NCBI RefSeq assembly: GCF_001039475.1 | Contig: NZ_LELK01000015.1 | Coordinates: 62,001 to 126,000 of the forward strand | DNA: 64,000 bases | Origin: Guptibacillus hwajinpoensis | GTDB taxonomy: Bacteria > Bacillota > Bacilli > Bacillales > Guptibacillaceae | Direction of reading: 5' to 3' | Part shown: in pieces, positions 2,310-61,220 of the stretch | Numbering within the stretch: position 1 is the stretch's first letter | How the letters are laid out: the number at the start of each line of letters is the position of its first letter | Program-made: the position numbers and the translations under genes | The notes under the pieces: generated by a model | Databases searched by the model: none | The model's input: the letters and a program-made list of their open reading frames with translations, nothing else | Told to the model about the DNA's origin: nothing

Positions 2310-4046
2310 TTAATGGTCCTCCGTGGTTGGAATTATAAAGCATATGGTCGTTCCTTCGTGTAAAGTGCTCCGAATATGAAGGGTAGCTTTGTTACTGTAT
2401 AGCATAGATAGGCGCCGATTGACGTTATAGAGCCCGAGGCCTGTGCCAAGTTCAGATGAGACGTGCATTTGTCCAAGCTGACTAAGCCGCTCGGGAGGAA
2501 TTCCTTCTCCGTTATCCGTTACACAGACGAGTGTACCGTTTGATTGACGCGCAATCCGAATCTCAACTAAGCAGTCTGTGTTCTTGTTTTTAATACCATG
2601 TTTAATTGCATTCTCAACAATTGGCTGAAGAGTGAGAGGAGGTAGATTCATCGTTAGTGCACTTTCATCTATGTCATAAATTACTTTCAGGCGATCCACA
2701 AAACGCGCCTCTTCTATTTCAAGATAAGCTTTCACGTGCTTCAACTCCTGGTTGAGCGACGTCATATTTGCAGTCGTTCCAGACAAATTTTGTCTTAAAA
2801 AGTGTGAAAGAGAAACGAGTAATTTGCGTGCTTTATCAGGTTCAATGCGTATTAACGAAATAATCGTATTAAGGGAATTAAAAAGAAAGTGTGGACTAAT
2901 TTGTGCTTGTAACGCTTTAATCTCTGTTTCTTTTGCAAGTTGATAAGCTTTATCTGCTTCAGCGATTTCAAGCTGATTACTAAGCAGATTGCTAAGTCCG
3001 AGAACAAGCTCGGTAATGATATGTGTGATTTCTTTTTCAGAGCGAAAATAAAACTTTAGAGTGCCGATCGTTTTGCCGCGCTGTTTAAGAGGAGCAATGA
3101 TTGCAGCACCAAGCGGACAATCTTTCTCAGAACAGTGGATCGTTTGGTCATTCGCGATGACAATTTCACCATCATTGATTACGTTTTTTGTAATCGTTGT
3201 TTGAATTTCATGGCCTGCTTGGTGATGATCATTCGCAAGTCCGACGTGACTTAAAATATGTGTGCGGTTCGTCATCGCGACTGCGCTACCGTCAATCTCG
3301 CGGTGAAGAATCTGACAAACTGCTTTAGCTGAGGCTGCCGAAAGCCCCTCTCTGAGATACCCGAGCGTTTGGTCTGCGATACGCAGAGTTTTTTGAGCCT
3401 GCAGAGCACCTGCTTTTTCTTCCTCGTTTACCACGTTTTTGATAATGAGAAGGAAGAGAGCACAGCCGATTCCGTTAGCGAGAATCATAGGAATGCCGAT
3501 TACTTCGACAAGAGCGATGGCGTTTTCGAATGGCTTCGATAAAAGTAAAATAATGAGCATTTGAACGGTTTCTGCTCCAGCACCGATCACAAAGGCTGAG
3601 CGGAGCTTCACATGACGATTTCGTTTATGTAAAGATCCAGCGATCAGTCCGGCTATAATAGAAGCAAGTCCACATGCGAGCGCTGTAAAACCTCCAAGCA
3701 TGTAGCGATGAAACCCCGCGATTAACCCGGCACCAAAGCCAACTCTCTTTCCACCCAGCAGACCGGCAAGTACAACGCCGATGACCCTGGAATTAGCGAT
3801 GGCTTCATCAGAGGACACTTCAAGCGGCCAGGAGTTAAACTGGAGTGACTCCGTACTGAATGTTAAACCGGTATACGTACCAATGATGCCAAAAAAACCA
3901 AAGAACCCAATCGCAACGTACTGTTGCTTACGAGCAAGTTGATCGCTGTGTATCATATCTCGGAAGAAGCGAAAGCGGGTTAGCACGAACGCAATCGTTA
4001 CAATAATGCCGAGTCGCTCAAGCATCGTAAGCAAGAGTTCGAACAT
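2310..4046 (-). CDS. LytS-type sensor histidine kinase
   Basis: Membrane sensor kinase of 578 residues in the LytS/BtsS family. It has an N-terminal 5TM-5TMR_LYT membrane module (about residues 1-190, six hydrophobic helices), a GAF-like domain (about 220-360), then a His_kinase domain with the phospho-acceptor motif AQISPHFLFNSLNTI and an HATPase_c domain (NAIKHGIKN, DNGEGIP, GTGLGLYNV). The start chosen is the ATG at 4046, 7 nt after AAGGAG; a longer frame would reach back into a repeat at 4075-4115. It is the partner of the LytTR regulator next to it. In related systems the ligand is extracellular pyruvate; that function is inferred from the neighbouring CstA transporter. Confidence 0.9.
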   Translation of the reverse strand: MFELLLTMLERLGIIVTIAFVLTRFRFFRDMIHSDQLARKQQYVAIGFFGFFGIIGTYTGLTFSTESLQFNSWPLEVSSDEAIANSRVIGVVLAGLLGGKRVGFGAGLIAGFHRYMLGGFTALACGLASIIAGLIAGSLHKRNRHVKLRSAFVIGAGAETVQMLIILLLSKPFENAIALVEVIGIPMILANGIGCALFLLIIKNVVNEEEKAGALQAQKTLRIADQTLGYLREGLSAASAKAVCQILHREIDGSAVAMTNRTHILSHVGLANDHHQAGHEIQTTITKNVINDGEIVIANDQTIHCSEKDCPLGAAIIAPLKQRGKTIGTLKFYFRSEKEITHIITELVLGLSNLLSNQLEIAEADKAYQLAKETEIKALQAQISPHFLFNSLNTIISLIRIEPDKARKLLVSLSHFLRQNLSGTTANMTSLNQELKHVKAYLEIEEARFVDRLKVIYDIDESALTMNLPPLTLQPIVENAIKHGIKNKNTDCLVEIRIARQSNGTLVCVTDNGEGIPPERLSQLGQMHVSSELGTGLGLYNVNRRLSMLYSNKATLHIRSTLHEGTTICFIIPTTEDH

Positions 4047-60057: not shown

Positions 60058-60280
60058 TTGTTTATTGTATTCACACTGGACACAACGTTATTTCGAGTTT
60101 AACTATTAATTTCCGTGGAAATATTTCAAGAATCGACGAAATGATAATCCATTACAAAATTATTGCTAAACTCATAGAATACAATTGTTATCACTAGTAA
60201 TGAAAAAAGTGTTAAATTAATAGTTAGAACAGGTTGAGTTGAGTCAATTGAGCTTTTTGTAGTTAGGAGAGGTTACTGGA

Positions 60281-60841
60281 ATGGATAACTTAAACTATCA
60301 ACTTGAAGTACCGCAAAGCGAAAATGTTACACTTGAGCAATTAATTAAGCAGAAAAAATCAATGGTTGTGTTTATTCGACATCTTGGTTGACCAGTTTGT
60401 AGAGCTTACCTTACGCAGTTGCGTAAGCGCGTGAATGAACTTGAACAAGAAGGGTTTCAGATTATTGCTATTGCCCCCTCTAATGCATCCTATATAAGTC
60501 AATTCAAAGAAGCATTTGGAGAGTTTCCATTTCTGATCGCTGGAGACCCTAAAAGAGAAGCTTATCGTGGGATGGGACACCATACGATGCCAAAGTGGAA
60601 ATTGCTTGGACAGGCTGCAATTGGATTTGTAACGAGAAAATTGGATGGCTTTATTCCAAAAGAGCAGAAGAAAAAGGACTTTGTCCTGAAATCCATGAAA
60701 ACTCAGGATGTATACATTCAAGGTGGAACGTGGATCTATGACGAGCGTGGAGTAATGATTTGGAATCATATCGATCAGTCTCCCGAGGATCATGCGAAAA
60801 TCGATACGGTGTTAGATGTTCTAAAAAAGAACAAGGCATAA
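60281..60841 (+). CDS. Peroxiredoxin-like redox protein, candidate selenoprotein (in-frame TGA = Sec37)
   Basis: Thioredoxin-fold AhpC/TSA-type protein of 186 residues if the TGA at 60389-60391 is read through. The frame starts at ATG with AGGAGAGG 8 nt upstream and continues across the TGA with coherent coding sequence to a TAA. Around it the protein reads VVFIRHLG-[TGA]-PVCRAYLTQLRKRV. Relatives have FxRHxGCPxCR, so TGA replaces the first Cys of the C-x-x-C redox site, the standard position of selenocysteine in Prx-like and SelL-like proteins. A SECIS-like hairpin follows at the right distance. The rest (ITAIAPSNASYI-like IIAIAPSNASYI, FPFLIAGDPKREAYRGMG, GGTWIYDERG) is normal for the family. 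Alternative: a pseudogene or base error in a Cys codon. Confidence 0.8.
60410..60427 (+). promoter_or_regulatory. Candidate bacterial SECIS hairpin
   Basis: CTTACGC (60410-60416) and GCGTAAG (60421-60427) form a perfect 7-bp stem with loop AGTT. The loop begins 25 nt after the TGA, and G is its second base. Both meet the usual bacterial SECIS criteria (loop 16-37 nt after the UGA, small apical loop with an early G). An alternative stem GCTTAC/GTAAGC is also possible. Confidence 0.65.
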
Positions 60842-60842
60842 C

Positions 60843-60882
60843 AAAAGCGCTTCTGATTCTATGTCAGAGGCGCTTTTTTTTT
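60843..60882 (+). terminator. Terminator of the candidate selenoprotein gene
   Basis: AAAAGCGCTTCTGA pairs with TCAGAGGCGCTTTT, followed by a run of T, two bases after the TAA. The intact terminator and gene end argue against a decayed gene. Confidence 0.92.
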
Positions 60883-60887
60883 AATAG

Positions 60888-60997
60888 TAGGCTATGTTAA
60901 TGAACAGTGTGTGATTTTTGGCTCATTCGAGTGAAACTGAGGTTTCACTCGAATGAGCCAAAAATCGAGAAATCAACAATATGAGCTAAAATATAGT
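60888..60997 (+). mobile_element. MITE-like element, family 2, short copy
   Basis: AGGCTATGTTA at the left, then the perfect inverted pair GATTTTTGGCTCATTCGAG...CTCGAATGAGCCAAAAATC with the GAGTGAAAC/GTTTCACTC centre, and a decayed right end. It lacks the larger hairpin core of the copy at 29786-29984. Confidence 0.75.
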
Positions 60998-61079: not shown

Positions 61080-61220
61080 AGGTTGATTGGAGCGGAAGGT
61101 GCTCGACTCCTGCGGGACTAGCGGGACAGGTGAGACCCCACAGGCGCAATGTTTTCTGCGCCGAGGAGGCTCACCGCCCGCCCCGCGGAAAGCGAGCACC
61201 TGTAGCGCAAATCAATCACT
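61080..61220 (+). repeat. GC-rich core of family 1 repeat, near-complete copy
   Basis: Starts with GTTGATTGGAGCGGAAGGTG and ends with AGCGCAAATCAATCAC. Inside are GCTCGACTCCTGCGGGA, AGCGGGACAGGTGAGACCCC, GGCGCA...TGCGCC and GAGGCTCACCGCCCGCCCCG. Blocks of it occur in the elements at 22154 and 54711. The GC content is far above the surrounding DNA. Similar GC-rich repeats are, from memory, common in Bacillaceae intergenic regions. Confidence 0.75.

Follow-up and report, generated by a model that had tools for sequence, protein, structure and literature searches.

A predicted selenoprotein gene of the peroxiredoxin-like type in Guptibacillus hwajinpoensis and other Bacillales

We describe a gene located at 60281-60841 of a 64,000-nucleotide stretch of Guptibacillus hwajinpoensis DNA (assembly GCF_001039475.1, contig NZ_LELK01000015.1, positions 62,001 to 126,000 of the forward strand; this whole stretch is referred to as the window). 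The frame runs from an ATG at 60281 to a TAA ending at 60841, i.e. 186 codons and a stop, and its single in-frame TGA is codon 37, found in the context VFIRHLG-TGA-PVCR, where it opens a U-x-x-C redox motif. We are highly confident that this is a stand-alone selenoprotein gene, in which the TGA would be read as selenocysteine (Sec) and whose product would belong to a family of redox proteins. This confidence refers to Sec insertion and to the protein family; the reaction proposed below is graded separately.

The conserved TGA, the Sec machinery and the SECIS-type hairpin

In the family Guptibacillaceae the gene is present in 14 of 15 genomes, all 14 copies having the TGA. An order-wide search of 397 genomes (E up to 1e-15) detected a homologue in 69, and codon 37 is TGA in every one of them (69/69). 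The carriers span 26 of the 135 genera searched and include Pseudalkalibacillus, Cytobacillus, Mesobacillus, Rossellomorea, Salipaludibacillus, Pontibacillus, Alkalicoccus and others. Judged by the closest named relatives, the genome of the window is of the Pseudalkalibacillus type. Two carrier records are labelled as Gram-negative genera, Chryseobacterium sp. ISL-80 (L054) and Pseudomonas sp. ISL-84 (L059); their gene copies are typical of Bacillales, so the record names are probably wrong. Two peptide patterns, of which one demanded Cys at this position, were also run against 84,980 species, each represented by a single genome. Of 75 matching stretches 47 are relatives of the gene, with TGA in 47/47; these 47 named loci and the 69 order genomes overlap partly, the same genomes appearing under two labels. 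The scan gave no close Cys form, though Cys forms matching neither pattern would escape it. According to the preliminary description of this DNA, reads with TGC or TGT at this codon would refute the selenoprotein reading; among the relatives, both codons are absent from the two sets. A search of the wider phylum (E up to 1e-15) gave no new carrier, its 2 positive genomes out of 398 being ones found before, and a plasmid search had no match at 1e-5. With E up to 1, distant matches appear in 32 plasmid records; the alignment of homologues at codon 37 gives TGA in the Bacillales relatives and Cys in the three distant plasmid homologues that were examined.

The gene is found together with the capacity to insert Sec. 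A tRNA-Sec lies above the Rfam gathering score in 179 of the 397 genomes of the order (this search used stricter filters, E up to 1e-8, so that weak tRNA-Sec genes may be missed), and all 69 gene carriers have one (hypergeometric 1.8e-28, ignoring relatedness). The preliminary description called selenoproteins uncommon in Bacillaceae, a view that does not suit this order, where Sec use, judged by the frequency of tRNA-Sec, is not rare. Three genomes (G063, G083 and G145) gave two tRNA-Sec matches each.

The genome that contains the window (4.26 Mb, 99.99% complete) has one sel cluster, on contig C14 (L016), composed of selA, a SelW-like gene, selD, phnCDE-like genes, selB and tRNA-Sec (Table 1), so that all four genes selA, selB, selC and selD, to which the preliminary description had pointed, are present. 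Together with selD and the SelW-like gene, each of which has its own UGA, the selenoprotein candidates of the genome number at least three. In both of these genes the Sec motif is followed by a small hairpin whose loop has GUU. The model of the formate dehydrogenase alpha subunit matches three times in the genome, none of the three having an internal stop, and at the gathering score Rfam finds only tRNA-Sec in L016 and has no match within the window. The binding protein of the PhnCDE-like transporter also has a hit to TIGR04553, a model for putative selenate binding; the score of 188.6 bits stays under the cut-off of 250, and the transporter may thus import selenium instead of phosphonate.

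The TGA is followed by a hairpin with the stem CTTACGC/GCGTAAG and the loop AGTT, the stem beginning 18 and the loop 25 nucleotides (nt) after it. The bacterial selenocysteine insertion sequence (SECIS) is a stem-loop directly 3' of the UGA with a G in a small apical loop, according to PMC1088965 and PMC9312934, and our own scans find these features here. Comparable hairpins, i.e. those with a perfect stem of at least 7 base pairs (bp), a G at loop position 1 or 2 and a similar distance, follow 14 of the 2698 TGA triplets of the window, that at 60389 included; when the 70 nt past the TGA are shuffled with dinucleotides preserved, such a hairpin arises in 80 of 20000 cases. With this chance rate of 0.4-0.5% the hairpin by itself is suggestive and no proof; the selenoprotein case is carried by the comparative data, beyond the hairpin itself.

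The 117 loci yield 88 distinct sequences; of the 616 cells that these give for the seven stem pairs, 98.9% are standard pairs. The pairs changed on both sides are C-G/U-A and A-U/G-C, plus C-G/U-A in L122 alone. Doubly changed cells number 39 as opposed to 1.8 in shuffles, and none of 500 shuffles, which ignore relatedness, matches the observed doubly changed pairs or cells. When the stem is slid, 15-62% of the cells are paired, with at most two doubly changed pairs and at most four such cells. Folded in isolation, the 24-nt hairpin has z -2.51, and 4 of 200 shuffles are as good; its loop is AGTT in 68 of the 69 genomes and AGGT in one. The synonymous diversity of codons 44-49 is 0.17 of expectation versus 0.91 in the rest of the gene, and no other of the 178 windows of codons is as low (53 of 115 sequences, those at least 85% alike having been removed), and a version with 45 of 78 sequences gave 0.13 versus 0.89; in the 45 sequences compared, Gln46 is always CAG and Leu47 always TTG. 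This constraint acts on the nucleotides, at the place where a bacterial SECIS belongs. The intact frame, ribosome site, terminator and lone TGA at codon 37 given in the preliminary description, as well as its perfect 7-bp stem with spacings of 18 and 25 nt, are exact to the coordinate, and its proposal that Sec is inserted here is supported by the sel genes, the conserved TGA and the constrained hairpin.

Fold, active site and the Sec-only variant

The best Pfam model of the protein is PF13911 (AhpC-TSA_2; 50.5 bits, gathering cut-off 27), with PF00578 just below it at 47.9 bits; PF00578 and PF08534 are both above their cut-offs. Among NCBIfam models the best is NF040769, SelL-related redox protein, which matches all 12 family members tested (A1); with Cys in place of Sec the protein scores 95.5 bits (85.8 bits in the genome search), under the cut-off of 120. 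The predicted structure has a thioredoxin/peroxiredoxin fold, with whole-domain similarity to solved members. The closest solved folds are peroxiredoxin-like, and the best Foldseek match of the model is human prostamide/PGF synthase, the Cys44 and Cys47 of which align with U37 and C40. The preliminary description had called the gene peroxiredoxin-like, which agrees with the fold. SelL has the diselenide motif U-x-x-U, which is not present here, the motif being U-x-x-C or U-x-x-Y in 69/69. The canonical peroxiredoxin motif PxxxTxxC/U is not present either, residue -3 being His in 112 of 115 sequences and Tyr in 3; PxxxTxxU is the form of this motif in PMC13188914.

We propose that SelB carrying Sec-tRNA-Sec would recognise the hairpin at 60410-60427 and meet the ribosome at the UGA, so that Sec would be inserted at codon 37, a step to which the computed gene content and comparative evidence point. 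The selenol of Sec37 would lie where the first long helix begins, at the position of the first redox Cys in peroxiredoxin (Prx)-like 2/PGF-synthase proteins. A peroxide or a disulfide would then oxidise Sec37, Cys40 would close a selenenylsulfide with it, and a thioredoxin-type or low-molecular-weight thiol reductant would restore it; in relatives with Tyr40 the resolving step would fall to an outside thiol. Oxidation of Sec37, its selenenylsulfide with Cys40 and reduction by a thiol are in our opinion the most likely reaction, with a little more in favour than against. Since the canonical Thr at -3 is absent, peroxide reduction is given modest odds over disulfide exchange.

An alternative that deserves attention, though we hold it to be less likely than not, is that Sec is inserted but that the protein is a thiol:disulfide oxidoreductase of the thioredoxin- or ResA-like kind and no peroxide reductase. 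U-x-x-C is a thioredoxin-type motif, His takes the place of Thr at -3, Sec with a nearby Cys fits disulfide exchange, and the ResA model matches, weakly, 1 of the 12 members tested. On the other hand the closest solved folds are those of peroxiredoxin-like proteins, and the replacement of Cys40 by Tyr in 8 of 69 genomes, in seven of them with no other Cys, is awkward for a two-thiol mechanism and easy for a selenol peroxidase.

This replacement deserves a closer description. Residue 40 is Cys in 61 of the 69 genomes and Tyr in the other eight (L128, L131-L137). Seven of the eight Tyr40 proteins, all from one genus (g47), have no ordinary Cys at all, and the eighth (L137) has one elsewhere. All eight loci retain the TGA and the hairpin, the AGGT loop being that of L137. 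The protein tree, built without the broken copy L140 (see below) from the remaining 68 proteins, needs two changes to Tyr40, and L137 is a long branch in it. In the seven Cys-free proteins Sec alone is predicted to remain as redox residue. A fixed Sec combined with a dispensable Cys40 favours a selenol nucleophile with resolution by a partner thiol over classical two-thiol exchange. Five relatives have two in-frame TGAs, which raised the idea of a U-x-x-U form; this was rejected since the second TGA is the terminator in L128, L131 and L136, where ends and codon were inspected, and L132 and L133 end alike. Taken together, these data may describe a Bacillales family that is obligately Sec-dependent and lacks a close Cys counterpart. 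Catalysis would depend on Sec alone, so that a Cys-free, Sec-only peroxiredoxin-like lineage (7/69) could arise that keeps both UGA and SECIS, and the family could help to sustain the Sec trait; we put this forward tentatively, as a reading somewhat less likely than not.

Other readings of the TGA and the surroundings of the gene

Near-cognate suppression, by which the UGA would be read as Cys or Trp, agrees with the Cys that distant homologues have at codon 37, but we consider it very improbable: every genome in which the gene was found has tRNA-Sec (69/69), synonymous sites in the SECIS-type hairpin are under constraint, chance read-through would not fix a TGA that is one step from TGC and TGT, and in 20 of 78 loci TGA serves as the ordinary terminator of the same gene. 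The last reading, that the TGA is a real stop, can be judged from the coding constraint on its two sides: in comparison with L018, nonsynonymous (dN) and synonymous (dS) change are 0.099 and 0.432 before the TGA and 0.031 and 0.358 after it, and such low amino-acid change on both sides, lower still downstream, argues against a pseudogene or a real stop. Even though the standard code splits the frame, and a TTG-started frame of 140 residues exists at 60419-60841, a pseudogene, a sequencing error or a separate downstream gene is rejected as having almost no chance of being correct, because the TGA stands at the same codon in 69/69 genomes and 47/47 named loci, both sides are constrained, the TTG is the invariant Leu47 codon inside the hairpin (45/45 sequences), and neither a 36-residue product nor a remainder without residue 37 would have the active site.

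Several observations weigh against the selenoprotein reading or the proposed reaction. Sec insertion is inferred from sequence, RNA and structural model. The gene is absent from 110 of the 179 tRNA-Sec genomes, which makes it one user of the Sec trait among others. The 65-nt RNA folds no better than its shuffles (z -0.37). Double-sided change affects three of the seven stem pairs, for one of which it is confined to a single sequence, and relatedness can inflate such counts; a smaller count, with 56 sequences, has one doubly changed pair, a number reached by 275 of 500 shuffles. A covariance model of the hairpin at 60410-60427 misses the hairpins of selD and of the SelW-like gene in this genome, meaning that they have no common sequence signature and share only the small GUU loop. 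His instead of the canonical Thr at -3 makes peroxidase activity unsure, and no conserved neighbour in the 48 loci compared points to a reductant. Finally, the copy in genome G185 (L140) retains the TGA and the hairpin, but a TAG shortly past FGPFPF breaks its frame. It is the only broken copy of the 69, the preliminary description having regarded decaying relatives as a sign of a pseudogene; additional TAA or TAG codons in G013, G366 and G387 were rejected as decay since they are located at the protein end.

Table 1. Location of the gene, its signals and the sel cluster
Feature	Location	Strand	Remark
Selenoprotein gene (predicted)	window 60281..60841	+	186 residues, AhpC-TSA_2 / Prx-like 2 redox protein with U37-P-V-C40
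Ribosome-binding site AGGAGAGG	window 60265..60272	+	read directly
TGA codon 37	window 60389..60391	+	would be read as selenocysteine
Cys40 codon, putative resolving residue	window 60398..60400	+	sole ordinary Cys of the protein
Bacterial SECIS-type hairpin	window 60410..60427	+	7-bp stem, AGUU loop 25 nt past the TGA
Terminator-like hairpin, then T run	window 60843..60877	+	consensus scan, 15 pairs
selA	L016 1638-3029	minus	passes curated cut-off
SelW-like gene with CMQU	L016 ~3091-3322	minus	UGA-bearing selenoprotein candidate
selD	L016 3420-4469	plus	passes curated cut-off; own TGA, SSKGGUGCKIGPE
phnCDE-like ABC transporter genes	L016 4510-6915	minus	between selD and selB
selB	L016 6941-8974	minus	passes curated cut-off
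selC (tRNA-Sec), anticodon TCA	L016 9321-9413	plus	passes curated cut-off

Purine-rich sites are also present upstream of those homologues whose starts were inspected. The neighbourhood was compared in the window and the 47 named loci, with flanks of up to 3 kb: no conserved operon partner was found beyond groups of close relatives, and the most recurrent neighbour occurs in 12 of the 48 loci. Between the gene and the next gene, which is on the opposite strand, the window has a perfect 25-bp inverted repeat with a 4-nt loop (60913-60966). A long imperfect inverted repeat with 42-nt arms, 71% complementary, lies at 61083-61215 and contains the words CTCCTGCGGG and CCGCGGAAAGCGAGCACC; it resembles a dispersed intergenic element, the core pattern of which occurs only once in the window.

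Comparison with known selenoproteins

The gene can be compared with several families of known selenoproteins. Firstly, the PF00578 Prx-like thiol:disulfide oxidoreductases with UxxC or UxxU, as listed in PMC13188914 and PMC9312934, share with it a Prx/thioredoxin-type domain and UxxC. They differ in that the best Pfam model of the window protein is AhpC-TSA_2, with PF00578 close behind, and their carriers are Deltaproteobacteria and a clostridium in the consulted part of PMC1794560, while the window gene belongs to Bacillales. Secondly, a peroxiredoxin-like UxxS selenoprotein (cd02970 in PMC13188914, pfam13911 in PMC9312934) is of the same AhpC-TSA_2 domain family; UxxS, as opposed to UxxC/UxxY in the Bacillales gene, sets the two apart by their descriptions. 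Thirdly, SelL is likewise described as a Prx-like selenoprotein (PMC2398784), but its U-x-x-U is absent from the Bacillales gene (U-x-x-C in 61/69, U-x-x-Y in 8/69). The NCBIfam model that matches best, NF040769 SelL-related redox protein, leaves the window protein below its cut-off.

Among eukaryotic proteins the comparison is with selenoprotein U (SelU) and PGF synthase; U37/C40 correspond to Cys44/Cys47 of the human PGF synthase at about 19% identity. SelU and PGF synthase form one family, under the names PRXL2A (FAM213A) and PRXL2B. The likeness is one of profile and fold, and the Bacillales gene differs in having a bacterial SECIS-type element within its coding region. Turkey SELU (FAM213A) has Sec where mammals have Cys (PMC4466519).

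A 2026 inventory lists 119 prokaryotic selenoprotein families (PMC13188914, Table 1), among them PF00578 UxxC/UxxU Prx-like, PF08534 UxxC redoxin and cd02970 UxxS peroxiredoxin-like. An AhpC-TSA_2 UxxC family is absent from this table, as judged by descriptions, so that overlap with the included families is possible, and the string 'Bacill' occurs nowhere in the paper. In 2006 the Firmicutes/Bacillales were credited with three selenoproteins of three families (Table 2 in the consulted part of PMC1794560). No account of the Bacillales family was found in the portions of the PubMed Central (PMC) literature searched, namely PMC13188914 and the passages of PMC9312934, PMC1794560, PMC2398784, PMC1088965, PMC5029168, PMC5330540, PMC12013277 and PMC4466519; a prior description, or a Sec annotation in RefSeq, is possible. 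Automated annotation often truncates selenoprotein genes at the UGA (PMC13188914), which means that such a gene is easily missed.

The gene adds a predicted selenoprotein for 26 of 135 genera of an order in which 179 of 397 genomes have tRNA-Sec. As the Sec-only variants have no second thiol, and as no close Cys form was found, they may be a natural test of selenium versus sulfur, and direct experiments would be possible in those carriers that are in culture, Cytobacillus firmus and Mesobacillus species among them. On the basis of these comparisons we assign the gene to the Prx-like 2/SelU/SelL-like redox proteins as a new member that would use Sec; what is unusual about it is the Sec-only variant.
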